From Celeribacter ethanolicus (GTDB taxonomy: Bacteria > Pseudomonadota > Alphaproteobacteria > Rhodobacterales > Rhodobacteraceae), in the NCBI RefSeq assembly GCF_001550095.1, contig NZ_LRUC01000041.1:1-64000 (forward strand): a stretch of 64,000 nucleotides of DNA. Direction: 5' to 3'. Both the position numbers and the translations under genes were made by a program. Under the pieces are notes generated by a model. The model saw nothing but the letters and a program-made list of their open reading frames with translations. It was not told the DNA's origin and made no database searches. Each line of letters starts with the position of its first letter. Within the stretch, counting starts at the first letter, position 1. This document shows positions 13,505 to 39,732 of this stretch, piece after piece.

Positions 13505-13575
13505 ATCTCATCACGAAGACAAAAAAATCCCGCTTCGCGAATCACTTTGGACTTGCGAATTCGAATGCGCGACAC

Positions 13576-13643: not shown

Positions 13644-13679
13644 TCGGCTCGTGCCTCCTGTTTTGTTGTTTTCTGCTCG

Positions 13680-15874: not shown

Positions 15875-16151
15875 TGGACCTGCCCTTATTCTCATGCGCT
15901 CCGTTCCATTTCTGGACGGCTCGCTTACTTTGCTGCCCTCGTGTCCGCCCATCATGGTCGGAGCGTGTTCACGAAATTTGGCGTTTATCGCCTCTTTTCC
16001 GTGACTATTGCCGAAGATGTCAGATTCGTGCAAGTATTTTCTATATTTGGTGGTTTTGCCCCTAGAAGACACATCACTTCCCAGACCTACTTTTCTGGCC
16101 AGCATTCGTTACAGAGGGCGTCTCGACGCACGGATGGTGGGTCAGCCGAAC

Positions 16152-22864: not shown

Positions 22865-22966
22865 CCACATGAGGACCACCAACTGAGATACCGAAGCCGA
22901 GCCTGGCAAGCCCTGATGTAAACGTCAGGGAACCGCTTGGTGCGCCCGGCTCTCAGGCAAATAGGA
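22865..22966 (+). ncRNA. Structured leader RNA upstream of mesX, SAM-I/IV-riboswitch-like
   Basis: In order: CATGAG (22868), CTGGCAA (22903-22909), a perfect CCCTGA/TCAGGG hairpin (22911-22930), AACCGCTTGGTGCGCC (22931-22946), then GGCTCTCAGG and the AGGA ribosome-binding site (22963-22966). The arrangement GGCAA-hairpin-GGTGC and the CATGAG start resemble the SAM-I/SAM-IV core; TGAG can pair with CTCA to close the structure. The 3' element CTCTCAGGCAAATAGGA also resembles a glycine riboswitch. The genes downstream make methionine, which favours SAM. Confidence 0.5.
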
Positions 22967-22978
22967 TATGCGATCACT

Positions 22979-23959
22979 ATGACCGAAGATTTTGCATTCA
23001 AAATTTCAACTCTTTGCTTCGACGAAAACTATACGCCTGCGGATCACACCCGGCTGACGACCAATTTTGCCAATCTGGCGCGTGGGGAAAATCGTCAGGA
23101 AAACCTGCGCCGTGCGCTCACCATGATCGACAACCGTTTCAACGCGCTGGCGCATTGGGACAACCCCAAGAGTAATCGCTATTCAGTCGAGCTTGAGATC
23201 ATTTCCGCCGATCTGGACATCGAAGGCAATGGTGCGGATTTCCCGGCGATTGAAATGTTGAAAACCACTATCGTCGATCACAAGACAGGCGCACGGATCG
23301 AGGGTATGGTCGGGAACAGCTTTTCCTCCTATGTTCGCGATTACGATTTCAGCGTGCGCCTTTTGGACCACAACAAGGGTCGCGACGGGTTCAGTGTGCC
23401 GGAAAACTACGGCGACTTGCATGGCAATCTCTTCAAACTCTTTGTCACGTCTCCCGCCTATCAAGAGAATTTCGCAAAACGTCCGGTGTTCTGCCTGAGC
23501 GTGTCACACAATAAAACCTACAACCGCACCGCCAACGACCACCCGGTTCTGGGCTTTGAATATCTGCCCGACGACACCTCGCTGACTGAGGCCTATTTCA
23601 AGAAAATGGGCCTTCAGGTGCGATATTTCATGCCGAAAAACAGTGCCGCCCCGCTGGCCTTTTTCTTCTTTGGCGAGCTTTTGAATGATTACAGCAACCT
23701 CGAACTGATCTCGACGATCAGCACGATGGAGAGCTTTCAGCGGATCTACCGCCCGGAAATCTACAACGCCAACGCGCCCGCAGGTGTTGTGTACCAACCC
23801 AGCCTCGATCATCAGGACTATTCGCCGACGCGCATCGTCTATGACCGCGAGGAACGGAGCCAACTGGCCGTCAAGCAGGGCAAATACACCGAAGAGCACT
23901 TCATCAAACCGCACCACGACCGTCTTAAGGCGTGGTCGGCAAAGTTCGCTGCTCAATAA
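22979..23959 (+). CDS. mesX: MesX (DUF1852), oxygenase-like partner of MesD
   Basis: A 326-residue DUF1852 protein starting MTEDFAFKISTLCFDENYTP. DUF1852 proteins are found next to MesD-type methionine synthases and are needed for their function in aerobic bacteria, probably as an oxygenase. Visible conserved blocks include FCLSVSHNKTYNRTANDHPV and YSPTRIVYDREERSQL. No signal peptide. It follows the candidate riboswitch with AGGA 12 bp before the ATG. mesD begins 95 bp downstream. Confidence 0.88.
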   Translation: MTEDFAFKISTLCFDENYTPADHTRLTTNFANLARGENRQENLRRALTMIDNRFNALAHWDNPKSNRYSVELEIISADLDIEGNGADFPAIEMLKTTIVDHKTGARIEGMVGNSFSSYVRDYDFSVRLLDHNKGRDGFSVPENYGDLHGNLFKLFVTSPAYQENFAKRPVFCLSVSHNKTYNRTANDHPVLGFEYLPDDTSLTEAYFKKMGLQVRYFMPKNSAAPLAFFFFGELLNDYSNLELISTISTMESFQRIYRPEIYNANAPAGVVYQPSLDHQDYSPTRIVYDREERSQLAVKQGKYTEEHFIKPHHDRLKAWSAKFAAQ

Positions 23960-24054
23960 AGCGCTTGCACACTCCACAATCAGGCGTTTCCCGATCAGGC
24001 ACAAACTCGATCGGGAAGCGCGTTTTGAACTAAAAACGCACAAGGTCTCAGATC

Positions 24055-25083
24055 ATGAACAAACTGCTTCCCACTTCCACCGCTGGCAGCCTGCCGAAAC
24101 CCTCTTGGCTGTCTGAGCCAGAAAAGCTCTGGTCGCCTTGGAAACTCGAAGGCGAGGCCCTCATTGAGGGCAAACAGGATGCGCTGCGCGTCACGCTCAT
24201 GGAGCAACAGGTCGCGGGCATCGATATCGTCAGCGACGGCGAACAAACCCGCCAGCACTTTGTCACCACCTTCATCGAAGGCCTCGACGGCGTCGATTTC
24301 GAGAAACGCGAGACGGTGAAAATCCGGGACCGCTATGATGCCAGCGTGCCGACCGTCGTCAGTGCCGTGTCGCGCCCGAAATCCGTCTTTGTCGAAGATG
24401 CCAAATTCCTGCGCAGCCAGACCAAAGCCCCGATCAAATGGGCGCTGCCGGGCCCGATGACGATGATCGACACGCTTTACGACGCGCATTACAAAAGCCG
24501 CGAAAAGCTTGCATGGGAATTCGCCAAACTGCTCAATGAAGAAGCCAAAGAGCTTGAGGCCGCAGGCGTCGATATCATCCAGTTCGACGAACCCGCGTTC
24601 AACGTGTTTTTCGACGAGGTGAACGACTGGGGCATGGCCACGCTGGAGCGCGCCATGGAAGGTCTTAAATGTCAGACGGCCGTCCATATTTGCTATGGCT
24701 ATGGCATCAAGGCCAACACCGACTGGAAGAAAACCCTTGGCTCCGAATGGCGTCAATACGAGTTGATCTTCCCGAGCATTCAGAAATCCAGCGTCGATCT
24801 GGTCTCGCTTGAGTGCCACAACTCCCATGTGCCGCTGGATCTAATCGAGCTGATCCGGGGCAAAAAGGTGATGGTCGGCTCCATCGACGTGGCCAACAAA
24901 CCCATCGAGACCCCCGAAGAGGTCGCCGACACCCTGCGCAAAGCGTTGCAATTCGTCGATGCGGACAAGCTTTACCCCTGCACCAACTGCGGCATGGCCC
25001 CGCTGTCGCGCGAGGTGGCGCGGGGCAAGCTGAATGCACTGTCCGCCGGTGCAGAAATTGTCCGGCGCGAACTTCAGGCCTGA
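24055..25083 (+). CDS. mesD: MesD, folate-independent core methionine synthase
   Basis: A 342-residue protein matching only the C-terminal catalytic half of MetE (which is about 750 residues). Zinc and homocysteine ligands are present: IQFDEPAF (about 180-187), HICYGYG (about 204-210), DLVSLECHNSH (about 245-255) and CTNCGM (about 307-312). The folate-binding N-terminal half is absent, so the methyl donor is not methyl-THF. Together with MesX it defines the MesD family. This gives a cobalamin-independent route to methionine. Confidence 0.9.
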   Translation: MNKLLPTSTAGSLPKPSWLSEPEKLWSPWKLEGEALIEGKQDALRVTLMEQQVAGIDIVSDGEQTRQHFVTTFIEGLDGVDFEKRETVKIRDRYDASVPTVVSAVSRPKSVFVEDAKFLRSQTKAPIKWALPGPMTMIDTLYDAHYKSREKLAWEFAKLLNEEAKELEAAGVDIIQFDEPAFNVFFDEVNDWGMATLERAMEGLKCQTAVHICYGYGIKANTDWKKTLGSEWRQYELIFPSIQKSSVDLVSLECHNSHVPLDLIELIRGKKVMVGSIDVANKPIETPEEVADTLRKALQFVDADKLYPCTNCGMAPLSREVARGKLNALSAGAEIVRRELQA

Positions 25084-25151
25084 CGGTTTTACAGTTCGGG
25101 CAAGCGTCACCGGCATGCCCGAACTGCCCCCATTTTGACGGAAACGACCTC

Positions 25152-25654
25152 ATGTCCGACACACTTGCCCCGGAAACCATCGACCCGCGTGCTCTGCGCG
25201 ATTGCTGCGGTCGTTTCGCAACCGGCGTTACGGTGATCACCACCCGCACGCCGACGGTGATCACGGCACGACGGTCAGCGCCTTTATGTCTGTCTCGCTC
25301 GATCCGCCGCTGATCGCGATCTCTCTCGATCGTCGCTCGAAAATGCTGGGCAAACTGCAGGCATCGGGACGCTATGCGGTGAATATTCTGTCGAGCCATA
25401 TGCGCGCACATGCCCTGCATTTCTCCGGGCGGCGCGATGAGACGTTGCAGAACCTTTTCCTTGAGCACGATGGCTTGCCGGTCCTGCGCGAGGCCGCAGC
25501 GCTGCTTGTGGCGGATGTAGTGCAACAGGTTGATGCGGGCGATCACGTTATCGTTCTAGGTCAGGTGCGCCATCTGGATCGCGACCCGGAGGCCGCGCCG
25601 CTTTTGTTCCATGCCGGGCAGTTTGGCCAGCTTGCGTCTGATCTCGTCCGGTGA
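25152..25654 (+). pseudogene. Flavin reductase-like gene with a single-base frameshift
   Basis: The first frame reads MSDTLAPETIDPRALRDCCG, RFATGVTVITTRTP; after about 25255 homology continues in the next frame with GDHGTTVSAFMSVSLDPPLI, SLDRRSKMLGKLQASGRYAV and ends GQFGQLASDLVR at 25654. Restoring one C in ACGCCGACGG gives a normal 168-residue flavin reductase domain protein. It lies 68 bp after mesD and could supply reduced flavin to MesX. It may be a true lesion or a sequencing error; no second lesion is seen. Confidence 0.75.
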
Positions 25655-25747
25655 GCTTTCAGCGATAAAGCAAAATGCTTTCACGGCTGAATAGGCGGTA
25701 TCTCTTCTGTATGAGTGCCCTCATCGAGGGAGGAAGGGAAGCTGAGA

Positions 25748-27184
25748 TCACACTTCGCCCTCGAAACGGAACAGGGCGAGGCTGCGTTCGCGTTCGTTGA
25801 TCGCGAGTTTGCGGTTGATCGGCGCCTGCGCGCGTGAGGCGCAGTTCCGCCGTTCGCAAAGGTAGCAATTCAGCCCGATGTCCGTCGGTTCGGTGGTCCC
25901 GAGATTGAGCCCGTCGGCGTAGACCAGACGCGCGGCATAGGAGAGGTCGCATCCCAGACCGATCGCGTGTTTCTGTGCCGGTGCATTATAGGTGCCGCCC
26001 ACGCGGGTCACGGTGCGGGCAATCGACAGGTAGCTTGCGCCCTCCGGCATGCGGATGATCTGGGTCTGGACCTGTTCGGGGGTCTCGAAGGCGCCATGGA
26101 TGTTCCAGAGCGGGCAGGTGCCGCCAAAGCGCGAAAACGGGAAACGGCCCGCGCTGAAGCGTTTGGAGATATTTCCCGCCCGGTCGATCCGCACGAAGAA
26201 GAACGGCACGCCGCGCGCGTCGGGCCGTTGCAGGGTGGACATCCGATGCGCCACCTGTTCGTAACTCGCACCAAAGCGGTGACCGATCAGCTCGATGTCG
26301 TAACGTTCCTGTTCGCAGGCGGCGAGAAAGCGTTTGTAAGGCATGAGCAGGGCGGCGGCGAAGTAATTTGCGAGGCTGACACGGGCGAGGCTCTGGCAGT
26401 CTTCGACAAAGCCCGCGTCCGCCATCACCGTATCCATCAGGCCTTCGTGTTCGAGGCGCGCGATCAGAACTCCCATCTGAAATCGTCGACTGCGTTGGGT
26501 GAGAAGCTCGGAGAGCATCAGCTCCTTGCGGTGCGGGTCGTAGCGCCTGAGCGCACCGCTCATGACGCTGGCCGGAAGGATGCGCACGCGGATGCCATGG
26601 TGTGTCAGCCGTTCGGTGAGGGCGACATGCGGTTCCTCGCGATGCAAGGCCATGTCGGTGGCCTGAGCTTCGGCGGCCTCGTCAATCGGGGCGATGTAGT
26701 TGCTGTTGGCGTAGAACCAGTCGCGCACCCGCTCCACCGGGCGCGCGATCTGGCCCAGCACTTCGACCTTGTTGCGATCCGTGAGCGGGTTCTCGTCGGT
26801 CTGGCTGCGCATCATGGCGTCGGTGTGCTTGCCTTGCAGACGCACCAGAGCTGCGGCGATCCGGGGCGAGGCTTGCAGCACGGCGTCGATCTCGCTTTTC
26901 GGCAGGCGCGGCAGTTCGAGCGCCGGGTCTTTCAACACCGCCTCGAAATCCGCCGTCAGTTGCGTGTCGATCTCCGGGGCCAGCTCTGAGATGTTCATGT
27001 CGTAGACCTGTGCGAGCTTCATCAGAAGTTTCGCAGAGGCCGGGCGCTGATCCGTCTCGATGAGGGTGATGTAGCTGGCGGAGACATCGAGCTGTGCTGC
27101 CATCTGCGCCTGTGTCAGCCCAAGCGATTTTCGCAGCACCTTGAGGCGGTTGCCGATGTTCAGTTTGACGCCTTTCTGGCTCAT
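25748..27184 (-). CDS. ScfR/RamB-type XRE regulator of glyoxylate-shunt genes
   Basis: A 478-residue paralogue of the 16152-17549 regulator: XRE HTH at about 11-65 (LTQAQMAAQLDVSASYITLI), a central DUF955-like region and a C-terminal cysteine cluster (LNCYLCERRNCASR). It is divergent from aceB-aceA. RTTACAAA-type motifs (27233-27272) lie in the shared 200-bp promoter region and differ from the TTYGCRAA motifs of its paralogue, so the two regulators probably have separate targets. The likely signal is acetyl-CoA or glyoxylate metabolism (inferred from RamB). Confidence 0.85.
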   Translation of the reverse strand: MSQKGVKLNIGNRLKVLRKSLGLTQAQMAAQLDVSASYITLIETDQRPASAKLLMKLAQVYDMNISELAPEIDTQLTADFEAVLKDPALELPRLPKSEIDAVLQASPRIAAALVRLQGKHTDAMMRSQTDENPLTDRNKVEVLGQIARPVERVRDWFYANSNYIAPIDEAAEAQATDMALHREEPHVALTERLTHHGIRVRILPASVMSGALRRYDPHRKELMLSELLTQRSRRFQMGVLIARLEHEGLMDTVMADAGFVEDCQSLARVSLANYFAAALLMPYKRFLAACEQERYDIELIGHRFGASYEQVAHRMSTLQRPDARGVPFFFVRIDRAGNISKRFSAGRFPFSRFGGTCPLWNIHGAFETPEQVQTQIIRMPEGASYLSIARTVTRVGGTYNAPAQKHAIGLGCDLSYAARLVYADGLNLGTTEPTDIGLNCYLCERRNCASRAQAPINRKLAINERERSLALFRFEGEV

Positions 27185-27232
27185 GCCTTGTTCCTCCCGT
27201 TTAGCTCAGTGTGCCGTTTCTGACGTGACAAC

Positions 27233-27272
27233 ATTACAAATCGGCCGTGAAAATGGTTACAAAAATTACAAT
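27233..27272. promoter_or_regulatory. Candidate operator repeats for aceB/regulator promoter
   Basis: ATTACAAA (27233), GTTACAAA (27256) and ATTACAAT (27265) are directly repeated in an AT-rich gap between divergent genes. The surrounding 27185-27385 holds no gene. Confidence 0.5.
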
Positions 27273-27385
27273 ATAACCATTTAATAACAAATAGATAGTG
27301 ATATTTTTTATGACATTACTAATCTAACTACAGGAATCGCATACCGATGCATACAAAACATTGAACCGACATGAGGGAGGTGCCC

Positions 27386-29002
27386 ATGGCTCTGGATCTG
27401 ACACACTCGAAGGCGCTTGTGCTGCGCGATGTCGCGGGGGCGGAACGCGTTTTGACGCCGGAGGCGCTGGAGTTTCTCATCGCGCTTAATGCCGCATTCG
27501 CGACACCGCTGCGCACGCTTTTGGCCGCCCGCGCCTCGCGCCAGCACGGCTATGACACCGGCCATCTGCCGGAATATTTGACCGAGACCCGAGACATTCG
27601 GCGCGGGGACTGGCAGGCGGCGGGCGTGCCGGAAGCGCTTCAGGATCGCCGCGTCGAGATCACCGGCTCCGTGGACCGCAAGATGATGATCAATGCGCTG
27701 AATTCCGGGGCCAAAGTCTTTATGGCGGATTTCGAAGACGCCTCCGCGCCGCGTTTCGACGTCATGATCGCCGGTCAGGTGAACCTGATGGATTATCGCG
27801 ACGGCACGTTGGCTTTCGACGATCCGAAAACCGGCAAATCCTACCGCATGGCGGAACAGATCGCGACGCTGATCGTGCGCCCGCGGGGCTTGCATCTGGA
27901 AGAGGCCAATGTGCTGATCGACGGCCAGCCGATGCCCGCCGCCTTGTTCGATTTCGGCCTGTCTTTCTTTCACAACGCTCATGAGTTGCATCGCAGCGGG
28001 CGGGGGCCGTTCTACTACCTGCCAAAGCTGGAAAACCATCGCGAGGCGCGGCTCTGGAATGCGATTTTTGTCTGGGCGCAGGATCGGATCGGTCTGTCGC
28101 AGGGCACGATCAAGGCGACCGTGCTGATCGAAACCCTGCGTGCGGCTTTCGAGATGGATGAGATCATCTGGGAACTGCGCGACCATATCGCCGGGCTGAA
28201 TTGCGGGCGCTGGGATTATATTTTCAGCTATATCAAGACGCTCCGGGCGCATGCCGAGTACACGCTGCCGGATCGGGCGCAGGTGACGATGGACAAGGCA
28301 TTTTTGGCGACCTACGCCGCACGGCTCGTCAAGGTCTGTCACCGGCGCGGCATTCACGCCATGGGTGGTATGGCGGCGCAAATCCCGGTGAAAGGCGACG
28401 CGGCGGTCAATGAGGTGGCGTTCGAGAAAGTCCGGGCCGACAAGCTGCGCGAGGTGCAACTGGGCCATGACGGCACTTGGGTGGCGCACCCCGATCTGGT
28501 GCCCGTCGCGATGGAGGTCTTTGACCGCCATATGCCCGAGGCCAATCAGATCAAACGCCCACGGCAATATTACCGCATTGAAGAGCACAAGCTTCTGGAA
28601 CCGCATCGGGGCAGGGTCACCGAGGCCGGGGTGCGGATGAACATCTCCGTCGCGCTCGAATACCTGTCGCACTGGCTGTCGGGCAGGGGCGCTGTGCCGA
28701 TCCACAACCTGATGGAAGATGCGGCCACCGCCGAGATCAGCCGTGCCCAGCTTTGGCAATGGATACGTCACGGGGTGGAGGTTGGGCTGGTCGGAAGCGG
28801 TACGCGCAAGATGGACGCCGAGTGGTTCGGCAAGCTGTTGCAGGCGGAGGTGTCGGACATTCTCGACCGGATTGGCCCGGCTGGATTCCACCGCGGGCAT
28901 TACGCCTCAGCGCTGCGCCTCTTGCACGAAGCGGTGACGGCGCGCGAGATGCCCGATTTCATCACCATCCCGGCCTATGACGTGTTGAACGCCTTCAACT
29001 GA
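27386..29002 (+). CDS. aceB: Malate synthase A
   Basis: A 538-residue malate synthase of the A type, condensing glyoxylate with acetyl-CoA. Conserved blocks include MADFEDASAPRFDVMIAGQV, a catalytic region LRDHIAGLNCGRWDYIFSYI, and MGGMAAQIPVKGD. The C-terminal HGVEVGLVGSGTRKMDAEWF region is typical. GGGAGG lies 6 bp before the ATG at 27386. aceA follows 92 bp downstream. A very long open frame on the opposite strand is a codon-bias shadow. Confidence 0.95.
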   Translation: MALDLTHSKALVLRDVAGAERVLTPEALEFLIALNAAFATPLRTLLAARASRQHGYDTGHLPEYLTETRDIRRGDWQAAGVPEALQDRRVEITGSVDRKMMINALNSGAKVFMADFEDASAPRFDVMIAGQVNLMDYRDGTLAFDDPKTGKSYRMAEQIATLIVRPRGLHLEEANVLIDGQPMPAALFDFGLSFFHNAHELHRSGRGPFYYLPKLENHREARLWNAIFVWAQDRIGLSQGTIKATVLIETLRAAFEMDEIIWELRDHIAGLNCGRWDYIFSYIKTLRAHAEYTLPDRAQVTMDKAFLATYAARLVKVCHRRGIHAMGGMAAQIPVKGDAAVNEVAFEKVRADKLREVQLGHDGTWVAHPDLVPVAMEVFDRHMPEANQIKRPRQYYRIEEHKLLEPHRGRVTEAGVRMNISVALEYLSHWLSGRGAVPIHNLMEDAATAEISRAQLWQWIRHGVEVGLVGSGTRKMDAEWFGKLLQAEVSDILDRIGPAGFHRGHYASALRLLHEAVTAREMPDFITIPAYDVLNAFN

Positions 29003-29094
29003 TGGACCCGATCACACAGCTTTCCCCCTTTGGCGGGCCGCTCCCCAAGCGCTTGCCCGCCTGTCTGCTCAAACTGCCACAGAGAGGATATATC

Positions 29095-30705
29095 ATGGCA
29101 CAGCACAAAACCTATGCCGAGCTGCGCAAGGATCTTGAAGCCCGCTACCCGAATGGCCAGACCCCGGGCGGCGTCACCGTGGACGACATCATCCAGCTCA
29201 GGATCCAGAACACCTATGACACCCATCTCGACATCGCGCGCGGCATGGCGACTGTCATGCGTGCCGATATGGCCGCCTATGATGCGGATGCGACGAAGTT
29301 CACCCAGTCGCTTGGCTGCTGGTCCGGGTTTCATGCCCAACAGATGATCAAATCCGTAAAGCGTCTGAACGGCACCACGAAGCGCACCTATGTCTATCTC
29401 TCCGGCTGGATGGTCGCCGGTCTGCGCAATGCATGGGGCCACCTGCCGGATCAGTCCATGCATGAGAAAACCGCGGTGGCCGACCTCATTCGCGAGATTT
29501 ACACTTCTCTGCGTCAGGCCGACGAGGTGGCTTTGAACGATCTGTTCAAGGAGTTGAAGCTGGCGGCGTCTGAGGACGCGCGCAAAGCGGTGATCGCAAA
29601 GATCGACAGGTTCGAGAGCCATGTCGTGCCGATCATCGCGGACATTGACGCTGGCTTCGGCAACGAACACGCGACCTACCTTCTGGCAAAAGAGCTGATC
29701 AAGGCCGGGGCTTGCTGTCTTCAGATCGAAAACCAGGTGTCGGACGCAAAGCAATGCGGCCATCAGGACGGCAAAGTGACCGTACCGCGCGAGGATTTCA
29801 TCGAGAAACTGCGCGCCTGCCGGTTGGCCTTTGAGGAGCTGGGCGTTGATGATGGTGTCATCGTGGCGCGCACCGACAGTCTCGGGGCCGGTCTGACGCA
29901 GAAAGTGCCGGTCTCTGCAGCGCCGGGCGATCTGGCGTCCGACTATATCAAATGGCTCGACACAGAACAGATCACCGAAGAGAACCCGATCGCCGAGGGC
30001 GAGCTGGCGCTCTATCAGGGCGGCGAGTTCGTGCGTCCGCGCCGTCTGCCGAACGGGCTTTTCCCGTTCAAGCTGAACACCGGGCGCGCCCGCGTGGTCG
30101 AGGATTGCATTGCGTCGCTGTCGCATGGCGGGGCCGATCTTCTGTGGATCGAAACCGACACGCCGAACGTGGATGAGATCGCCGGTATGGTGAATGAAAT
30201 CCGTGAGAAAGTGCCGAATGCGAAACTGACCTACAACAACTCGCCCTCGTTCAACTGGACGCTTAATCTGCGCAAACAGGTCCGCGATCAGTGGATTGAG
30301 GAGGGCAAGATCAAGGAGGACGATTACCCGGCGGGCAACGAGCTGATGAAGGCCGATTTCGACGAAACCGAGCTTGGGCTTGAGGCAGACAACCGCTTGC
30401 GCAATTTCCAGACCGATATTTCGACGAAAGCGGGCGTGTTCCACAACCTGATCACACTGCCGACCTTCCACCTCACGGCGAAGGCGATGGACGAACTGAG
30501 CCAGGGCTATTTCGGCGAGGACAAGATGCTGGCCTATGTCTCCACCGTGCAGCGTCAGGAAATCCGTCGCGGCATCTCTGCTGTTAAGCACCAACATGAG
30601 GTCGGCTCGGACCTTGGCGATACGTTCAAGGAAATGGTCGGGGGCGAGCGGGCGCTGAAAGCGGGCGGCGCGGCCAACACCATGAACCAATTCGCGGCAG
30701 AATAA
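29095..30705 (+). CDS. aceA: Isocitrate lyase
   Basis: A 536-residue isocitrate lyase of the longer form. The active-site loop reads KQCGHQDGK (about 218-226) rather than the commoner KKCGH, with IADIDAGFGN (metal site, about 180-189) and VARTDS. It splits isocitrate to glyoxylate and succinate, forming the glyoxylate shunt with AceB. ATG at 29095 with AGAGGA upstream. GGTGC hairpins (about 30722-30765) and a strong terminator at 30837 follow. Confidence 0.95.
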   Translation: MAQHKTYAELRKDLEARYPNGQTPGGVTVDDIIQLRIQNTYDTHLDIARGMATVMRADMAAYDADATKFTQSLGCWSGFHAQQMIKSVKRLNGTTKRTYVYLSGWMVAGLRNAWGHLPDQSMHEKTAVADLIREIYTSLRQADEVALNDLFKELKLAASEDARKAVIAKIDRFESHVVPIIADIDAGFGNEHATYLLAKELIKAGACCLQIENQVSDAKQCGHQDGKVTVPREDFIEKLRACRLAFEELGVDDGVIVARTDSLGAGLTQKVPVSAAPGDLASDYIKWLDTEQITEENPIAEGELALYQGGEFVRPRRLPNGLFPFKLNTGRARVVEDCIASLSHGGADLLWIETDTPNVDEIAGMVNEIREKVPNAKLTYNNSPSFNWTLNLRKQVRDQWIEEGKIKEDDYPAGNELMKADFDETELGLEADNRLRNFQTDISTKAGVFHNLITLPTFHLTAKAMDELSQGYFGEDKMLAYVSTVQRQEIRRGISAVKHQHEVGSDLGDTFKEMVGGERALKAGGAANTMNQFAAE

Positions 30706-30933: not shown

Positions 30934-31407
30934 TCAAAGCTGTGTCGGGTTCGGCGCTTCCCCGTAGGCGGCCACCGGATCAAATGTCTTGTGATCTTCA
31001 ACGAAGACCAAGGGGACTCCAGCCTGCGCACCATGGGGCACCGCCCGGTAGAAACACGACCGATAGCCCACGTGGCAGGATGCGCCCGACCCGGTGACGT
31101 CAACGCTTAGCCAAAGCGCATCCTGATCATCATCAATGCGCGCCTCCACAACCTTTTGCACCAGCCCGGAGGTTGCGCCCTTGTGCCAAAGAACCTGTCG
31201 CGCGCGACTAAAGTAATGCGCCTCGCCGGTCTCAATCGTCAGGCGAAAGGCCTCCTCCGTCATCCAGCCCAGCATCAGAACGTCTCCGGTCGCCGCATCC
31301 GTGGTGATGCAGGGCATCAAGCCGTCATCCCCAAACTTCGGGGCAAGTTCGGTGCTCTCTTCGACCTGTTCGATTGTTTTGCGTGGGGCGAAGTCCAGTT
31401 GCGTCAT
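30934..31407 (-). CDS. hisI: Phosphoribosyl-AMP cyclohydrolase paralogue with altered zinc site
   Basis: A 157-residue HisI, which opens the ring of phosphoribosyl-AMP in histidine synthesis. The zinc site of HisI normally uses three Cys: one in a DCDxD motif and two in CHxGxRSCF. Here the latter two are present (ASCHVGYRSCFYR) but the first reads IDDDQD, Cys replaced by Asp. The gene is divergent from a COG0523 GTPase with a Zur-type palindrome between them, the context known for zinc-starvation hisI paralogues. The ATG at 31407 is preferred to a TTG at 31410. Confidence 0.9.
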   Translation of the reverse strand: MTQLDFAPRKTIEQVEESTELAPKFGDDGLMPCITTDAATGDVLMLGWMTEEAFRLTIETGEAHYFSRARQVLWHKGATSGLVQKVVEARIDDDQDALWLSVDVTGSGASCHVGYRSCFYRAVPHGAQAGVPLVFVEDHKTFDPVAAYGEAPNPTQL

Positions 31408-31439
31408 CAAGGTCTCTTTTCATCTGTTGCGAATGGCAA

Positions 31440-31454
31440 TGTTATAATGTAACA
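31440..31454. promoter_or_regulatory. Zur box between hisI and COG0523 gene
   Basis: TGTTATAATGTAACA matches the Zur palindrome TGTTATAnTATAACA at 13 of 14 defined positions. It is 33 bp before hisI and 42 bp before the GTPase gene, so Zur would repress both when zinc is plentiful. Confidence 0.8.
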
Positions 31455-31495
31455 ACGCATGACCAAATCCAGACGCATTGTAAAGGGCACGCACT

Positions 31496-32644
31496 ATGGC
31501 ATTGGAGGACACCCGCCTTCCGGTCACTTTGCTGACCGGTTTCCTTGGCGCCGGGAAGACAACTCTGTTGACACACCTGATCCGCGATCCGCAGGCGGGG
31601 CGGGTTGCGGTCATTATGAATGAATTCGGCGATGTGGCACTGGATCACGACCTGATCGAGGAGGCGACAGAAGAGACCGTGCTGTTGCCCTCCGGCTGCC
31701 TGTGCTGCGCGATCCTCGGCGATCTGGCCACAACGCTCGGGACGCTAGGTGCGAAGCGCTCGGCGGGTGATTTACACTTCGACAGGGTCGTCATCGAAAC
31801 CAGCGGCATCGCTGATCCGGGGCCAATAATCCACACGCTGGCCGCGGATCGGCAGATCGCCCAGACCTTCCGGCTGGATGGCGTCGTGACGCTGGCAGAT
31901 GCCGCGACGGGCATGAAGACGCTCGATCAACAGGCGGAGGCGGTGCAGCAGGTGGCGATGGCCGATGTGCTGATCCTGTCGAAAACCGATCTGGTCGACG
32001 ATTTTGACCTGATCCGGTTCGAGAAGCGCCTGGCGGGGATCAACACCACCGCCCGGCGCATCCGCTCAAGCCACGCGCAGGTGCCGCTCGGCGCGCTTTT
32101 CGGACTGTCCGCGATGCGCATGGGCGTGTCGCATGCCGAGATTGACACTTGGCTTGGGAAAATGCCGGACGCGACCCAACCGGACCCTCTGGCCGGTCTG
32201 TCTGGTCTGAAAGCCACGCTTTCAGCTCCTCTGGCATTCAACGCTATGCCGTCGGTGGCGCAGGGCCGTCACGATCACCGGATCACATCCGCCTCGATTG
32301 AGGTGGCAGAGCCCATTCCCGCCACGGTCTTCGACTTTTGGCTGAACACGTTGATTGCGCTCCGTGGGCCGAACATCCTGCGCATCAAGGGCATTCTGCA
32401 CGTCAAGGGCGCGGCCTATCCCTTTGTGATCCACGGGGTTCAACATATTTTCGATGCTCCTGTGCCGCTGAAAAACTGGTCCAGTCCCGACACCACAAGC
32501 CGTGTGGTCGTCATCGCGCGCGACATGGAGGAAGCCGACCTCAAAGCCAGCCTCAACATGCTTCTGTCGCGGCCGCCAAAGAGCGCGCCGGTGCATGATC
32601 TGGCCAGTGGCATGATGGTCGAAACCCTTGAGATGCCATTTTGA
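31496..32644 (+). CDS. COG0523 zinc-responsive GTPase metallochaperone (ZigA/ZagA type)
   Basis: A 382-residue CobW/HypB-like GTPase: Walker A GFLGAGKTT (about 15-23), NEFGDV, the metal motif GCLCC (CxCC, about 63-67), ETSG(I)ADP, base-recognition SKTD, then a C-terminal CobW_C domain (about 270-375) with LRIKGILHVKG. It transfers zinc to client proteins during zinc shortage. It follows the Zur box and precedes thrS by 57 bp. The neighbours hisI, thrS and DUF1826 are the typical company of the zinc-linked COG0523 subgroup. Confidence 0.9.
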   Translation: MALEDTRLPVTLLTGFLGAGKTTLLTHLIRDPQAGRVAVIMNEFGDVALDHDLIEEATEETVLLPSGCLCCAILGDLATTLGTLGAKRSAGDLHFDRVVIETSGIADPGPIIHTLAADRQIAQTFRLDGVVTLADAATGMKTLDQQAEAVQQVAMADVLILSKTDLVDDFDLIRFEKRLAGINTTARRIRSSHAQVPLGALFGLSAMRMGVSHAEIDTWLGKMPDATQPDPLAGLSGLKATLSAPLAFNAMPSVAQGRHDHRITSASIEVAEPIPATVFDFWLNTLIALRGPNILRIKGILHVKGAAYPFVIHGVQHIFDAPVPLKNWSSPDTTSRVVVIARDMEEADLKASLNMLLSRPPKSAPVHDLASGMMVETLEMPF

Positions 32645-32701
32645 TCCGATGCGAGACTGTTGTTCCTCCTCACATCTCCGCACCAAAGAAAGACCCCCGC
32701 A

Positions 32702-34648
32702 ATGTTCCATATTCACTTGCCCGATGGTGCCATTCGCGCGCTTAAACCCGCCAGCACCGCCGCCGATCTCGCCGCCTCCATCAGCCCCAGCCTTGCCAAG
32801 CGCACGGTGGCGGCGCGCGTCGATGGGAAACTCACCGATCTCTCCGCGCCTCTGCCGGATGGGGCGGCGGTGGAGCTTGTCACGCGCGATGATCCGGCGG
32901 CGCTTGAGTTGATCCGGCATGACCTTGCCCATGTCCTGGCCGAAGCCGTACAGGCGCTCTGGCCCGGCACGAAAACCGCCATCGGCCCGGCGATTGAGCA
33001 TGGGTTTTATTATGACTTCGAGCGCGACACGCCCTTCACCACGGAGGACCTGCCCGCGATTGAGACGAAGATGCGCGAGATCATCGCGGCGAAAATGCCT
33101 TTCACCTGTGAGGAGTGGACCCGCGACGCGGCGCGCGCGCATTTCGAGGCGGCAGGGGAACCCTATAAACTGGCGCTTCTGGAGGCGATCCCCGAAGGGG
33201 AGCCGATCAAAATCTACCGTCAAGGCGCGTGGCTCGATCTGTGTCGTGGCCCGCATATGCGCCACACCGGCGATGCGGGCAGCGCCTTTAAATTGACCCG
33301 CGTAGCGGGCGCCTATTGGCGTGGCAACAGCAACAACCAGATGCTCAGCCGTATTTACGGCGTGGCCTTTGCCGATAAGGCGGCACTTGAGGCGCATCTC
33401 ACTATGATGGCCGAGGCCGAAAAACGCGACCACCGCAGGCTGGGGCGCGAGATGAACCTCTTTCACTTCGAAGAGGTCGCGCCCGGCTCGGTCTTTTGGC
33501 ATGCGAAGGGCTGGCGGTTGTTTCAGACATTGATCGGCTACATGCGGGACCGGCAGGAGGCGGCGGGCTATATCGAGGTGAATTCCCCCGACATTATGGA
33601 CCGCGCCCTTTGGGAAACCTCCGGCCATTGGCAGAACTATCGCCAGAACATGTTCCTCGCCAAAACCGAAGATGACCGCGACTATGCACTCAAACCGATG
33701 AATTGCCCCGGTCATATGCTGATCTACGGGCAAGGCGTGAAAAGCTATCGCGATCTGCCGCTAAAGCTGGCCGAATTTGGCAAGGTCCACCGCTATGAAC
33801 CCTCGGGCGCTCTGCATGGGCTATTGCGTGTGCGCAGCTTTACCCAAGATGACGCGCATATCTACTGCACGCCCGAACAGCTCACAGAAGAATGTTTGAA
33901 GGTCAACGATCTGGTGCTGTCGATCTACCGCGACTTCGGGTTCGAGGATGTGCGGATCAAGCTTTCCACCCGGCCCGAAAACCGCATCGGCAGTGACGAA
34001 AGCTGGGATCGCTCCGAAGCGGCCTTGCGCGCCGCGCTGGATCAGGCGGGGCATCCCTATACGATTTTCGAGGGCGAAGGCGCGTTTTACGGACCGAAGC
34101 TGGAATATGTCCTGCGCGATGCCATTGGGCGTGACTGGCAATGCGGCACGTTGCAGGTGGATTTCAACCTGCCGGAACGGTTCGGGACGACCTATGTCGC
34201 GCCTACGGGGGACAAAATGGTGCCGGTCATGCTGCACCGTGCTTTGTTTGGTTCGCTCGAACGGTTTACAGGCATTCTGATCGAGCATTATGCAGGTCAC
34301 CTGCCGCTCTGGCTTGCCCCGGTCCAGGTTGTGGTTGCCACGGTGACGGGGGCGGCGGACGACTGGGCTACGGAGGTTGCAGGGGCCCTGAAAGCCGCAG
34401 GGCTCCGTGTCGAGACCGACCTGCGCAACGAGAAGATCGGGTACAAGGTGCGCGAACACGCGTTGCAAAAAATCCCGGTTCAGATCGCCCTTGGTGCCCG
34501 CGAAGCCGAAGAGCGCAGCATCTCGATCCGCCGTCACGGCACGGACAAGACGCAGTCTTTGCCACTGGAGGAGGCGCTTCAGCTGCTGGTCGCGGAGGCA
34601 CGGGTGCCGGGGGTGACGGGCCACAGTCTTTGCGTGGGGAAACCATGA
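32702..34648 (+). CDS. thrS: Threonyl-tRNA synthetase (zinc-island paralogue)
   Basis: A 648-residue, full-length class II synthetase: TGS domain (about 1-60), editing domain with [11 protein letters not shown] and LCRGPHM (HxxxH and CxxxH, about 70-190), catalytic core with motif 2 VHRYEPSG, and an anticodon-binding C-terminal domain. The catalytic zinc ligands Cys (MNCPGHM), His (DDAHIY) and His (MLHRALFG) are all kept, so it is not a zinc-free version. Placement behind a COG0523 gene on a plasmid suggests a second, zinc-starvation copy. The stop overlaps the thiolase start. Confidence 0.93.
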
Positions 34649-35823
34649 AAAACAAAGCTTTTATCGTCGGGGCCTATGAGCATCCGACACGGGATGCGAC
34701 CGACATTCCATTGGCGCAACTGCATGCTGAAGTGGCGGCGGGGGCGCTGGCGGATGCCGGGTTGAGCCTTGCGGATGTGGACGGGTACTTCTGTGCCGGT
34801 GATGTGGCGGGCTGGGACGCGCCCGGATGCGGGCCGTTTTCGATGGTCGAATATCTGGGACTGAACCTGCGCCATCTCGACACCACGGAAAGCTGGGGGT
34901 CGGCCTATATCAACCACGTCGCCCATGCCGTGCAGGCCATCGAGACGGGCAAATGCCGCGTGGCGCTGATCACGCAGGCCGGTCGCCCGCGCGCCGAGCG
35001 CAAATCCCCCGCGCAGATGCACAGCGAACAGACGCAAAGCGCGCATGAGGCCCAGTTTGAACTGCCCTATGGCCCGGTGGTCACCAATATGTACGGTATG
35101 GTGGCCGCCCGGCATATGTACGAACACGGTACCACGCCGGAGCAACTGGCTTGGATCAAGGTCGCCGCTTCGCATCACGCGCAGTACAATCCCAACGCCG
35201 TTCTGCCCAAGGTGGTGACGGTCGAAGACGTGCTAAATTCCCCCATCGTGGCGACGCCGCTGCACCGTTTGGATTGCTGTGTGATCAGCGATGGTGGCGG
35301 GGCGCTGGTTGTCGTGCACCCGGACGTGGCACGCGACTTGGATCGGCCCAAAATCACCCCCATCGGCGCGGGGTTCACCGTCAAGCATCTCAATGGCGGC
35401 TATTTCGACATTCTGGCCTCGGGCGGTGTGAAATCCGGCGCGGAAGCCTTTGCGCAAGCGGGTATCAAACCGCAGGACATCCAATATGCCTTGATCTACG
35501 ACAGCTTTACGATCACGGTTCTGGTGCAGCTTGAAAACCTCGGGTTCTGCGCGCCGGGGCAGGGTGGGCGTTTCGTGGCGGAGGGAAATCTCATCTCTGG
35601 CGTGGGACGTCTGCCGGTCAACACCGATGGGGGCGGGCTGTGCAGCAATCATCCCGGCAATCGCGGCGGCATGACCAAGCTGGTCGAAGCCGTGCGCCAG
35701 TTGCGTGGTGAAGCCCATCCCGCTGTTCAGGTGCCCGATTGTCATTTGGCACTGGCCCATGGCACGGGCGGGCAACTTGGATCACGACACGGCAGTGCCA
35801 CGCTTGTTCTGGAGAGGGTTTGA
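34645..35823 (+). CDS. Thiolase-family protein (SCP2-thiolase/lipid-transfer type)
   Basis: A 392-residue thiolase-fold protein starting [20 protein letters not shown]. It has the nonspecific lipid-transfer/SCP-x-type sequence with [24 protein letters not shown] and the C-terminal [14 protein letters not shown]. These enzymes cleave or condense acyl-CoAs and usually act with a DUF35 OB-fold partner, which is the next gene. The ATG overlaps the thrS stop by 4 bp, so expression is coupled to the zinc operon. The substrate is unknown. Confidence 0.85.
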
Positions 35824-35824
35824 G

Positions 35825-36235
35825 ATGTCCGTTGAGATGCCTGAACAAAACTCCATCACCGCACCAGAACCGACCGCAGAAACCGCCACCTATTGGGACG
35901 CCGCCGATGAGGGGCGGCTGGTGTTGAAACGCTGCCTCGGCACAGGCAAAGCCTTTCATCCACCGCGCACGATCAGCCCCTTCACCGGTCGGGCCGACAC
36001 CGATTGGATCGAGGCGGAAGGCACAGGAAAAATTTATTCGCTCAGCGTCTCAAGACGTCAGGGGACAGAGCATTGCATCGCCTATATCGAACTCACCGAA
36101 GGCCCGATCATCCTAAGCGCGCTGACCCAGTGCGATCTGTCCAAGGCAGAGATCGGACAACCCGTGCACGTCGTCTTTGAGCCTTGCGCAAACGGCAGAC
36201 GTGTCCCCATGTTCACCACGGTTGCGACCGATTGA
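35825..36235 (+). CDS. DUF35 OB-fold protein, thiolase partner
   Basis: A 136-residue DUF35 (Zn-ribbon plus OB-fold) protein. The usual N-terminal rubredoxin-like zinc ribbon has four Cys; here only one remains (LKRCLGTGKAFHPP) and the second CxxC is replaced by SPFTGRA. The OB-fold follows (WIEAEGTGKIYSLSVSRR). It normally channels acyl-CoA for the partner thiolase. Loss of the zinc ribbon is notable in a zinc-starvation operon. It starts 1 bp after the thiolase stop. Confidence 0.8.
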   Translation: MSVEMPEQNSITAPEPTAETATYWDAADEGRLVLKRCLGTGKAFHPPRTISPFTGRADTDWIEAEGTGKIYSLSVSRRQGTEHCIAYIELTEGPIILSALTQCDLSKAEIGQPVHVVFEPCANGRRVPMFTTVATD

Positions 36236-36261
36236 AACAAGATCACACAGAGGACTATCCT

Positions 36262-36735
36262 ATGCAGATCACCCAAGATGACATCGAAAACGCTCTCATC
36301 ACCTGGGGAGAGGGCAAGATTGCCATCTCGAAAGCTTTCGAAGAGGGCGGTATCGACGCCGCACGCGAGGTGGCCTCCGCCAATCTCGATGAGTACTACG
36401 GCTACAACCTCGGCCCGGTGCTGTTCAAGCCGACGATGACCAGTGGAGCGCAGACGTTTCGTCCGACGAAAGCCGGCGCTTTGGCCTATTTCTGCGGCCA
36501 TTCCGACGAGTACCCGCTCGATAATGGCTTTGCGATCATGGGATGGCGCGCGATGGAGCGGATCACCGCGGCGAGCTTCATTCAGGGCGACGTTGCCATG
36601 TGGATGGGATGGATCAAGCTGACGAACAAGGATGGTTCTGTCACCACTGTCGACAAGAGCTTTGGCTACAAAAAGGATGCGGCCGGCAAGATGCGCATCG
36701 TGCTGCACCATTCGTCTTTGCCCTACCAACCGTAA
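36262..36735 (+). CDS. NTF2-like (SnoaL/CaMKII-AD type) protein
   Basis: A 157-residue protein starting MQITQDDIENALITWGEGKI. The pattern of N-terminal helices, curved beta-sheet and C-terminal IVLHHSSLPYQP is that of the NTF2-like association-domain family. No catalytic residue set is evident. It is 26 bp after the DUF35 gene with AGAGGA before the ATG. Similar genes are found next to COG0523 GTPases in Rhodobacterales (from general knowledge). The role is unknown. Confidence 0.65.
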   Translation: MQITQDDIENALITWGEGKIAISKAFEEGGIDAAREVASANLDEYYGYNLGPVLFKPTMTSGAQTFRPTKAGALAYFCGHSDEYPLDNGFAIMGWRAMERITAASFIQGDVAMWMGWIKLTNKDGSVTTVDKSFGYKKDAAGKMRIVLHHSSLPYQP

Positions 36736-36765
36736 CCTTCCCATATATCAGAAAAGAGTGCCCGG

Positions 36766-37413
36766 ATGTTCCTTGAAATCAGCGACAATCTCACCGATTG
36801 CATCTCGGTCGTCTCCACACCCAAGGGCCTTCTGGGCATTCACGAACCGGCCTGCGCCGCGGCGATCTGGCAACGTGATCCGCTGCCGCGTTTCCAAAAC
36901 TGGATCGAGGCCTTGCCGCCGGAGAAATTGCCGAAAGCGCGGCTGATCTTACGGCCCGATGCAGTCTGTGAAGCGTTGTTGAATGTGGCATGCCAGTGCG
37001 GGACGCCGGAGTGTCCGGAGCGCGACATGCTGATCGAAGATGCCTCTGCGCTGGCGGCGATTTTTGCCAATGTCATGCAGGCCGAATACCTGCGTCTGCG
37101 GCTTGATGTCGTTGACACGAATGCCTGTCGCAAGTTCCACATTGACGCTGTGACTGCCCGGCTGGTCTGCACCTATCGCGGGACAGGCACGCAATACGGT
37201 CTGTCTGAGAATGGCCAAGATCCTGCGGAAATCGTCACGGTGCCAACCGGCGCACCGATTGTCTTGCGGGGGACGCGCTGGCCTGAAACGCCGCTCTCAA
37301 GCCTGTTGCATCGCTCGCCGCCGATTGCCGGAACGGGGGAGACGCGGCTCCTCTTGGTGCTCGACCCTGTGGAGGACCCTGCGGAGGAGGCAGAGGGCGC
37401 CTACCTGCATTGA
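36766..37413 (+). CDS. DUF1826 protein, zinc-cluster associated
   Basis: A 215-residue DUF1826 protein. It has a conserved RKFHIDAVTARLVCTYRGTG segment (His/Asp and Arg residues of an oxygenase-like beta-helix core), GAPIVLRGTRWP, and Cys in CQCGTPECPE. DUF1826 proteins recur beside COG0523 GTPases and Zur sites; the function is unproven, and the H-x-D pattern suggests an Fe(II)/2-oxoglutarate-like fold (inference). It ends the operon that starts at the Zur box. Confidence 0.8.
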   Translation: MFLEISDNLTDCISVVSTPKGLLGIHEPACAAAIWQRDPLPRFQNWIEALPPEKLPKARLILRPDAVCEALLNVACQCGTPECPERDMLIEDASALAAIFANVMQAEYLRLRLDVVDTNACRKFHIDAVTARLVCTYRGTGTQYGLSENGQDPAEIVTVPTGAPIVLRGTRWPETPLSSLLHRSPPIAGTGETRLLLVLDPVEDPAEEAEGAYLH

Positions 37414-37423
37414 GGCGCTGATG

Positions 37424-38440
37424 CTATTCGGACCCCGCCGTCGCAAACCGGGCGCGATAGTCGCGCGGTGACAGGGAAAAGCGGCGGCGAAAGGCTTTGC
37501 GCATCTGCTCGTCCGACTGAAACCCGGCCTTATACGCCACGCTTTTCAGTGGCAGGTCGGTATCGAGCAGCAAGGCCTTGGCGCGGTCACAGCGCAGGCC
37601 TTCCAGCATGGTCATCGGTGAGGCGCCGAATTCCGACGTGAACGCCCGCGACAGGCTGCGCACGCTCATGCCCTGCGCGCTGGCAATTTCGTCCAGTGTC
37701 AGGGGATGATCCAGACGCTCACTTATCCAGTTCAACACGTCGCTCATCCTGCTTGTCCCCGACATTTGCCCGGCCAGCAATGTGCTGAACTGAGATTGCC
37801 CGCCCGGTCGTTTGAGGTACATCACCATGTCGCGCGCCACGGCCAGGGCGATGTCGCGCCCGTAGTCCTGTTCGACAAAAGCCAGGGTCAGGTCAATCGC
37901 CGCCGTCACACCGGCGGAGGTCCAGAAATTGCCCGCCTGCACAAAGATCGCATCGGGGTCCACTTGCAGCTTTGGAAAGCGTTGGCGCAGCCTGTCGGCA
38001 TAGTTCCAATGGGTCGCGGCACTCTGGCCCTCCAAAAGACCGGCCTCGGCCAGAAAGAAAGAGCCGGTGCATAAGGCCGCGCAGCGCGTGACGTCGCGCC
38101 CATTTTCGCGGCACCACGCCACCAGCCTGTCTTCATTGCGCAGCACCTCTTCGATCTTGGCCGCGCCTGCGATCAGGACCGTTTCTGGGGTGCCGAGGTC
38201 GTCGAGGGCGACCGTGGCGCCCAGCGTCATCAGAGTGTCGGAGGGGATCGGACCAGCGGTAGGGGCCGCGATGGTGACGTCATAGCCGCCCGTATACCCG
38301 GCGGCGGCAAGATGCTGCGACGCATAGCTTAGTACGCTCAGCGGGCCTGTTGCCTCCAAGGTCTTGAAGCCGGGGTAAACAATCAGTGTCACCTGTCGTC
38401 GCTGGTTCATCCCGGGGGCAAGGTCGTGATCTGTCGGCAT
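37424..38440 (-). CDS. GlxA-family AraC transcriptional regulator
   Basis: A 338-residue regulator with an N-terminal DJ-1/PfpI-like domain (about 15-195; [36 protein letters not shown]) and a C-terminal AraC HTH pair (about 235-335; [40 protein letters not shown]). It is divergent from adhC (128 bp gap) and may regulate it. The ATG at 38440 or an internal ATG at 38410 are both possible. Confidence 0.88.
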
Positions 38441-38520
38441 CGTGTCGTGGTTCCCCGGATGTGGCCAGTACGGCCCGGTGTTTGGCCAAATGGGCGGGGT
38501 CAGATCGCTGGACCGCCCGA

Positions 38521-38535
38521 GGTGATACTATAACA
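38521..38535. promoter_or_regulatory. Second Zur-like box, upstream of adhC
   Basis: GGTGATACTATAACA matches TGTTATAnTATAACA at 12 of 14 defined positions, with a complete right half (TATAACA). The wider 21-bp element from 38518 is partly symmetrical. It sits 33 bp before the adhC ATG. Confidence 0.5.
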
Positions 38536-38568
38536 TCTCTGGATCACAGATTAACAGAGAGAACAGCC

Positions 38569-39732
38569 ATGAAAATCCGCGCTGCCGTTGCTTGGGAAGC
38601 CAACCGTCCGCTCGAAATCGAAGAGATCGACCTGGACGGTCCCAAGGAAGGCGAAGTCCTCATCCGCATCGTCACCACCAGCCTGTGCCACACCGATATG
38701 TTCACCCTGTCGGGCGCCGATCCCGAGGGTCTGTTCCCGGCGGTGCTGGGCCATGAGGCCGTCGGCATTGTCGAAGAGCTTGGGCCGGGTGTCACCTCGG
38801 TGAAACCGGGCGATCACGTCATCCCGCTTTACACGCCGGAAGACCCGAACTGTCCCTATATCAAATCCGGCAAAACCAACCTCTGTCAGACCATCCGCAA
38901 GACCCAGGGCCAGGGCGTCATGCCCGATGGCACCTCGCGATTCAGCTATAAGGGCAAGATGATCCATCACTATATGGGCACCTCGACCTTCGCCGAATAC
39001 ACGGTTTTGCCGGAGATTGCGCTTGCGAAAATCTCGAAAGAGGCGCCGCTTGCGAAGGCTTCGGTCATGGGCTGTGCGATCCCGACGGGCATGGGTGCGG
39101 TGCGCAACACCGCCAAGGTCGAAGCCGGGGCGACGGTCGCCGTTTTCGGTCTGGGGGCTGTGGGCATGGCCGTCATTCAGGGCGCCAAGATGCAAGGCGC
39201 GTCGCGCATCATCGGCATCGACACCAACCCGAACAAATTCGAATTGGCCCGCAGCCTCGGCGCGACCGAATGCATCAACCCCGCGGATTTCTCCAAGCCG
39301 ATTCAGGACATCATCGTCGAGATGACCGATGGCGGCGTGGATTATTCCTTTGAGTGCATCGGCAACGTCAATGTCATGCGTTCGGCGCTGGAATGCTGTC
39401 ACAAGGGCTGGGGCGAATGCACGGTGATCGGCGTTGCCGGTGCCGGTGAGGAAATCGCCACCCGTCCGTTCCAGCTTGTCACCGGTCGGGTCTGGCGCGG
39501 GTCGGCCTTTGGCGGCGTCCTGGGGCGGAGCCAGTTGCCAGGGATGGTCGATGAATGGCTGCGTGGCGATTTCGATGTCGATCCCTACATCACCCACAAT
39601 ATGACCCATGACCAGATCAACACGGCCTTCGATCTCTTGCATGCCGGGAAGTCGATCCGCTCCGTGATTCACTTCCAACCGGGGGAAACGATGCTGGTCA
39701 ATGATTTGCCGGGTGTCATTGTGCCTGCGTGA
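38569..39732 (+). CDS. adhC: Class III alcohol dehydrogenase / S-(hydroxymethyl)glutathione dehydrogenase, degenerate structural zinc site
   Basis: A 387-residue class III ADH that oxidises the glutathione-formaldehyde adduct. Catalytic zinc ligands are present: SLCHTD, LGHEAVG and VMGCAI; the NAD fold shows [15 protein letters not shown]. The structural-zinc lobe normally has four Cys (C-x2-C-x2-C-x7-C); here it reads [17 protein letters not shown], keeping only the second and fourth, with the first now Asp and the third Ile. About ten extra C-terminal residues are present. It lies behind a Zur-like site. It could be a low-zinc variant of FrmA. Confidence 0.9.

Follow-up and report, generated by a model that had tools for sequence, protein, structure and literature searches.

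Positions 30934-39732 of a 64,000-nucleotide stretch of Celeribacter ethanolicus DNA (assembly GCF_001550095.1, contig NZ_LRUC01000041.1, positions 1 to 64,000; hereafter the window) are predicted to hold a plasmid-borne, Zur-repressed zinc-starvation island that encodes low-zinc substitutes, a reading to which a probability of roughly 0.8 was assigned from sequence comparison. The island is a predicted zinc-starvation gene set on a repABC replicon, since RepA, RepB and RepC genes are encoded at window positions 12260-16105 of the same contig. Its genes run in the order hisI2 (minus strand); a COG0523 gene, thrS2, a thiolase-like gene, a DUF35 gene, an iota carbonic anhydrase (iota-CA) gene and a DUF1826 gene (all plus strand); a gene for an AraC/DJ-1 protein (minus strand); and adhC2 (plus strand). 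Within the plus-strand run from COG0523 to DUF1826 the intergenic gaps are at most 57 bases, a spacing that suggests an operon.

When zinc is present, Zur would occupy two boxes, one in the intergenic region between hisI2 and the COG0523 operon and one in front of adhC2, and the first of these would serve both hisI2 and the putative operon COG0523-thrS2-(thiolase-DUF35)-iota-CA-DUF1826; when zinc falls, Zur would release the boxes and the island genes would be expressed. The COG0523 GTPase would then act as a probable zinc chaperone, HisI2 would replace HisI with an altered catalytic metal site (Cys3 to Asp-Cys2), AdhC2 would sustain formaldehyde detoxification with about half the zinc per subunit, ThrS2 would add an extra ThrS copy with an intact zinc site, and a cytosolic iota-CA of the metal-free type would take over the supply of bicarbonate from the zinc beta-CA. 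The more specific proposal, that Zur exchanges a zinc beta-type cytosolic CA for a metal-free iota type and a two-zinc formaldehyde dehydrogenase for a one-zinc enzyme, is one that we would favour only slightly.

HisI2 and AdhC2 are altered at zinc-binding positions

The hisI2 gene (30934-31407, minus strand, ATG at 31407) encodes a phosphoribosyl-AMP cyclohydrolase paralogue that matches PF01502 and exceeds the cut-off of NF000768 (145 bits vs 126). The zinc site of HisI consists of Cys126, Cys142 and Cys149, with His143 as the base and an Asp trio as a second site (PMC8102479; this and the other papers are described here from excerpts). The original prediction, made from the window sequence, had noted a Cys-to-Asp change in the D-C-D-x-D zinc ligand motif, and this was borne out: HisI2 reads R-I-D-D-D-Q-D at this place, its zinc ligands are D,C,C where C,C,C is usual, and the other two Cys, the Asp trio and the His after the second Cys (SCH motif) are retained. 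An identity-based family search of 394 genomes was performed, from which the best 30 loci for adhC and the best 25 for hisI were read. Among the genes fetched by identity, D,C,C was found in 15/15 of the hisI2 type, and C,C,C in all 11 canonical hisI genes. The Asp-Cys2 site of HisI2 is probably either a weaker zinc site or a site for a different metal (Mg, Mn or Fe, for example).

The adhC2 gene (38569-39732, plus strand) encodes a class III alcohol dehydrogenase (ADH), or S-(hydroxymethyl)glutathione dehydrogenase, that scores 656 bits against TIGR02818 (cut-off 544). Two of the four structural-zinc Cys are indeed replaced, by Asp and Ile, as originally predicted, the site reading D92, C95, I98, C106 with two Cys kept. 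The catalytic ligands C40, H62 and C169 are intact in 41/41 aligned rows, and therefore at most one of the two zincs would be saved; D51, E53, R110 and K279, which we take to be contacts of the glutathione adduct, are invariant in the same 41 rows. All 12 adhC2-type genes (at least 82% identity; these include the window copy and a broken G270 copy) have D-C-I-C. All 19 canonical adhC genes (18 fetched from a much longer list, plus the copy in the own genome) have four Cys; a truncated G083 gene without the structural site was left out of this count. Thus AdhC2 has probably lost its structural zinc and kept its catalytic zinc, with a predicted zinc content of about half per subunit. An AlphaFold2 model of AdhC2 built on the 41 rows reached a mean predicted local distance difference test score of 45, too low for its structural lobe to be of use. 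The original proposal of an island of low-zinc substitutes therefore stands in the form of predicted Zur-controlled low-zinc paralogues that include a class III ADH, but does not extend to a zinc-free AdhC, because the catalytic ligands are intact.

The second threonyl-tRNA synthetase, thrS2 (32702-34648, plus strand; TIGR00418, 681 bits), keeps the motifs NCPGH, DDAH and LHRA, which we take to hold the Cys/His/His zinc ligands; judged by these motifs, ThrS2 is an extra copy and not a zinc-free form. Intact zinc motifs in ThrS2, together with CysS2 and RibD of related islands that appear intact by eye and the C95, C106 and catalytic site kept by AdhC2, would be expected if the island were Zur-controlled but served gene dosage, with paralogues that still use zinc and lost Cys that are tolerated drift. 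Furthermore, higher copy number has been offered as an alternative for paralogues, such as HisI and ThrRS, that keep zinc residues (Haas 2009, PMC2770081). However, the substitutions are fixed in the HisI2 (15/15 fetched) and AdhC2 (12/12 fetched) clades and not scattered, and structures of metal-free members of the iota-CA family have been solved (PMC8132391). We consider gene dosage unlikely and prefer a low-zinc substitution of enzymes.

Each D-type forms one clade in quick trees, with SH-like approximate likelihood ratio test support of 99 for adhC2 and 96 for hisI2. A search for Cys-complete copies elsewhere in the genome, as had been proposed with the original prediction, found a complete hisI on contig C41 and a complete adhC on four identical contig ends, so that the own genome probably has two canonical adhC copies, as well as a second thrS at C2:253948. 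A Cys-complete adhC is also present in 12 of the 13 adhC2-type genomes.

Zur-like boxes precede hisI2 and adhC2

A 21-base Zur matrix was trained on 28 of 29 znuA upstream regions from other genomes, L151 being left out as it has no site with at most three mismatches to the seed. Zur-like palindromes had been predicted at 31440 and 38521, and the two boxes that hold them are the top two sites of the 64 kb with this matrix: the box at 31437-31457, between the divergent promoters of hisI2 and COG0523, scores 22.0 (palindrome 31440-31454, one mismatch), and the box at 38518-38538, 5' of adhC2, scores 19.0 (palindrome 38521-38535, three mismatches). Across 200 simulated sequences, positions scoring at least 18 numbered 0.015 per 64 kb on average, and a palindrome search returned 4 strand matches vs 0.10 expected in shuffles. 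Upstream of hisI2, 12 of the 13 loci with a full upstream region score at least 18.5 and the thirteenth (L113) 10.1; L119 and L120, which start inside the hisI2 gene or at a contig end, were set aside (scores -1.4 and -0.5). With the same matrix no canonical hisI upstream region reached 15 (0/11, highest 11.7). Scores of at least 15 were found upstream of 4/12 adhC2 genes from the family search and of 0/19 canonical adhC genes (highest 6.9). In six of the remaining eight cases adhC2 sits downstream of a box-led DUF1826 gene, operon or zur-znu run. Half of these six (L163, L161 and L169) have the order zur-znuC-...-znuA-COG0523-DUF1826-adhC2; the run of L163 lies wholly on one strand, and those of L161 and L169 have unassigned opposite-strand open reading frames interspersed. 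Elsewhere in the own genome, sites of this motif stand 5' of znuA/zur, of zinT and of a second COG0523 gene. Taken together, these boxes predict in silico that Zur would bind and control the two island promoters.

Weak Zur-like sites upstream of aceB (window 27221-27323; scores 14.7, 13.1 and 12.1) were not counted. In the own genome, a one-mismatch Zur-like palindrome adjoins miaA and a gene for a small membrane protein, both named by eye (L017 1501-1515 = C41:57138-57152). A Cys-complete hisI amid mercury-resistance genes was seen on an Agrobacterium plasmid (L273 5974-6390), with no Zur box scoring at least 16 in that stretch.

The AdhC2 type is linked to zinc genes across species

A DNA pattern for D-P-x-C-x-Y-I-[KR]-x-G-K was scanned over 84,980 species genomes and matched 89 stretches, 76 of them adhC2 homologues and the other 13 unrelated to adhC2. 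Because the pattern fixes D, C and I, 74 of the 76 are D-C-I-C by construction, and neither the 76 loci nor the 41-row alignment was used to judge fixation; of the other two, the Salipiger pallidus gene encodes Ser at the last Cys position, which the pattern leaves free, and the second defied mapping. A zinc link, defined as the presence of DUF1826, COG0523, zur, znuA or hisI2 or a Zur box of at least 16, was found at 64/76 adhC2 loci (within 8 kb) vs 0/20 canonical adhC loci (about 8 kb), the canonical controls coming from one family and the adhC2 loci being taxonomically wider. DUF1826 was near adhC2 in 41 of the 76 loci, and a Zur box of at least 16 lay within 300 bp upstream of adhC2 in 27. 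Since the substitutions are marks of single clades that are tied to zinc genes, these data support the reading of HisI2 and AdhC2 as zinc-sparing paralogues. Carriers of adhC2 belong to Rhodobacterales, Rhizobiales, Halomonas and Salinisphaera, and the interleaving of these taxa in the adhC2 tree, together with the plasmid copies of island genes, suggests that the island genes may have moved by transfer. In Phaeobacter inhibens M631, for instance, a plasmid carries the portion hisI2-COG0523-thrS2-iota-CA-DUF1826.

Between the operon and adhC2 lies a gene for an AraC-family regulator with a DJ-1/PfpI domain (37424-38440, minus strand; PF12833, PF01965), FtrA/GbdR-like but below the cut-offs of those models, and an AraC/DJ-1 gene is near adhC2 in 23/76 loci. 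With the thiolase and DUF35 genes within the operon and aceBA upstream, it could be supposed that the operon has its place in carbon or methyl metabolism (formaldehyde, thiolase, carboxylation), that the AraC regulator is its true controller and that the zinc link is incidental. However, hisI2, thrS2, COG0523 and DUF1826 have no such pathway in common, and in L161, L163 and L169 adhC2 forms part of zur-znu runs; we regard this explanation as very improbable beside zinc starvation.

A leaderless iota carbonic anhydrase

The gene at 36262-36735 (plus strand), which is absent from the original prediction, encodes a leaderless COG4337-type iota-CA of 157 amino acids that matches the Anabaena structure 7c5v, and likewise 7c5w, with an E-value of 2.7e-43. 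COG4337 iota-CA is reported to hydrate CO2 without metal and to show no obvious bicarbonate dehydration, its named residues are Thr106, Tyr124, His197 and Ser199, and a benefit in a metal-poor sea has been suggested (PMC8132391). The window protein keeps the catalytic T58, Y76, H149 and S151, plus F90. Neither it nor the family forms of at least 57% identity have a strongly hydrophobic N-terminus by Kyte-Doolittle peak (at most 1.53); this peak is a crude measure and no signal-peptide predictor, and some of the start codons are uncertain. A strongly hydrophobic N-terminus (peak at least 1.89) was found in L052, L053, L055-L057, L275, L296-L299 and L302, all of at most 54% identity, and none in L054 (41%, unclear start), L187 and L188 (38%). 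The window iota-CA is predicted to be cytosolic. A beta-CA is encoded elsewhere in the own genome.

The closest relatives of the window iota-CA are mostly in such islands, in Celeribacter, Phaeobacter, Paracoccus, Roseovarius and Thioclava, G211 (83% identity) being the exception. Furthermore, a distant form (36-38% identity) adjoins adhC2 with thrS2, COG0523 or DUF1826 in L187, L188 and L241. A role of the iota-CA in zinc starvation appears likely, if less sure than the role of the island.

In three plasmid records (L271 8001-8474, L300 6001-6480 and L301 6001-6474) the iota-CA is labelled 'phosphoribosyl-AMP cyclohydrolase', a name probably carried over from the neighbouring hisI; the island thus exposes a naming error for iota-CA in public annotation.

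Points against a Zur-controlled, zinc-sparing island

Besides the intact motifs of ThrS2, several findings weigh against the zinc-starvation reading. The Zur-like motif of the own genome also adjoins miaA and further zinc-unrelated genes, and a whole-genome pattern search gave 8 and 9 matches vs 5 and 7 for a reversed control, so single weak pattern matches prove little. Two of the 12 family adhC2 genes (in G342 and G227) have no box at the promoter or operon head, no canonical adhC was detected beside adhC2 in the draft genome G227, and 12/76 adhC2 loci have no zinc link within 8 kb. An acidic first ligand is in itself no proof of zinc loss, as the ADH of S. solfataricus has Glu.

For the iota-CA, the score against NF047901 is 183 bits vs a cut-off of 350, with profile positions 51-204 of 205 matched and the N-terminal part missing, and only 8 of 40 family iota-CA copies adjoin zinc genes, one of these being a weak match with an internal stop. 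A dedicated Zur box before the iota-CA gene was rejected, as none of the 30 scored loci has a box of at least 10 directly 5' of it, and any Zur control must therefore come from the operon head. These same numbers, with 32/40 copies away from the zinc genes sought, would fit an iota-CA that is a passenger, a constitutive CO2 hydratase placed in the operon by chance. This appears doubtful, because the copies closest to that of the window are mostly in zinc islands of several genera (G211 excepted) and the distant form, too, stands beside adhC2.

Relation to known systems

Zur regulons of gamma- and beta-proteobacteria include HisI, ThrRS, gamma-CA and other paralogues, with DUF1826 in a gene-cluster legend, and the HisI and ThrRS paralogues there keep their zinc residues (Haas 2009, PMC2770081). 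The window island is like these islands in its COG0523 gene, HisI and ThrRS paralogues, DUF1826 gene, Zur boxes, canonical copies elsewhere and a CA; unlike them, with gamma-CA and zinc-residue HisI, it has a COG4337 iota-CA, a Cys-to-Asp HisI and a class III ADH, and 'alcohol dehydrogenase' has no occurrence in the text of Haas 2009. With the metal-free COG4337 iota-CA (Hirakawa et al. 2021, PMC8132391; PDB 7c5v-7c5y) the window protein shares the family, the catalytic Thr, Tyr, His and Ser and the HHSS motif, but it is leaderless, at 157 amino acids, and encoded in a predicted Zur operon, and neither 'zur' nor 'zinc limitation' occurs in PMC8132391. AdhC2 is like class III ADH, the glutathione-dependent formaldehyde dehydrogenase of TIGR02818, in its score above the curated cut-off and its catalytic zinc ligands, and unlike the canonical enzyme in its D-C-I-C site in place of Cys4 and its Zur-like box.

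ADHs also figure in Zur or zinc responses of Corynebacterium, Neisseria and Mycobacterium (PMC6103462, PMC7174638). A review lists adhA as zinc-dependent and adhP only as an alcohol dehydrogenase, with general mention of zinc-free ADH paralogues (PMC6103462), and ADHs of M. smegmatis are lower in a zur mutant or altered by zinc excess (PMC7174638); unlike AdhC2, no ADH of these genera is described in the excerpts as class III with a lost structural site. COG4337 together with the whole word Zur had no match in the open-licence literature. Among the open-licence matches listed (titles and abstract starts), a term search gave none linking iota-CA to Zur or zinc limitation, and a name search none on a low-zinc formaldehyde dehydrogenase or class III ADH. 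The kind of system is therefore already known; as far as these open-licence searches reach, what is new in it are three parts, namely the Asp HisI, the ADH with D-C-I-C and the iota-CA.

The zinc-sparing enzymes thereby gain a class III ADH that probably has one zinc, as well as a HisI with Cys changed to Asp, and D-P-x-C-x-Y-I-[KR] provides a sequence mark for the low-zinc-type ADH. If the reading is true, formaldehyde detoxification would be a protected function under zinc limitation and the metal-free iota-CA would gain a concrete physiological role in zinc starvation; no regulatory evidence for its proposed benefit in metal-poor water was seen in the excerpts of PMC8132391, and the Zur-linked operon gives a direct test.

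Other island genes and neighbouring features

Profile matches confirmed the identities originally given to COG0523, thrS and DUF1826. The COG0523 gene (31496-32644, plus strand; PF02492 and PF07683) encodes a CobW/YciC-type GTPase with a CxCC motif (CLCC at residue 68), and the DUF1826 gene (PF08856) lies at 36766-37413 on the plus strand. The thiolase-like protein of the PRK08142 type (34645-35823, plus strand; NF006010, 680.6 bits) and the DUF35/ChsH2-like OB protein (35825-36235, plus strand; PF01796, PF12172) are an accessory pair: present in 4/76 adhC2 loci, they were rejected as a core or standard part of the island. The loss of three of the four Cys of the DUF35 zinc ribbon was confirmed, with one left in the window protein, and of 16 further homologues in the family 15 retain the full set, whereas L341 lacks two.

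Island proteins are up to 99% identical to those of loci in Celeribacter sp. HF31 and C. naphthalenivorans. Identity of up to 99% was likewise found for L250, a contig labelled as a metagenome-assembled genome of Kangiellaceae, a label that is a probable binning error. Upstream of the island, window 22940-30705 carries a run that resembles mesX, a methionine synthase core protein gene (PF01717), a flavin reductase gene, an XRE regulator gene and aceB-aceA (all but the methionine synthase named from sequence likeness by eye). On a plasmid of Thioclava sp. FTW29, a single stretch comprises aceB-isocitrate lyase-COG0523-hisI-ribD-MesX-methionine synthase-flavin reductase. Related islands also carry RibD, CysS2 and a dihydroorotase with QVHFREPG replacing the HxH motif (L165 5695-6444, 8068-9411 and 10085-11413; names by eye), and one carries FolE according to its annotation (L272 5357-5968).

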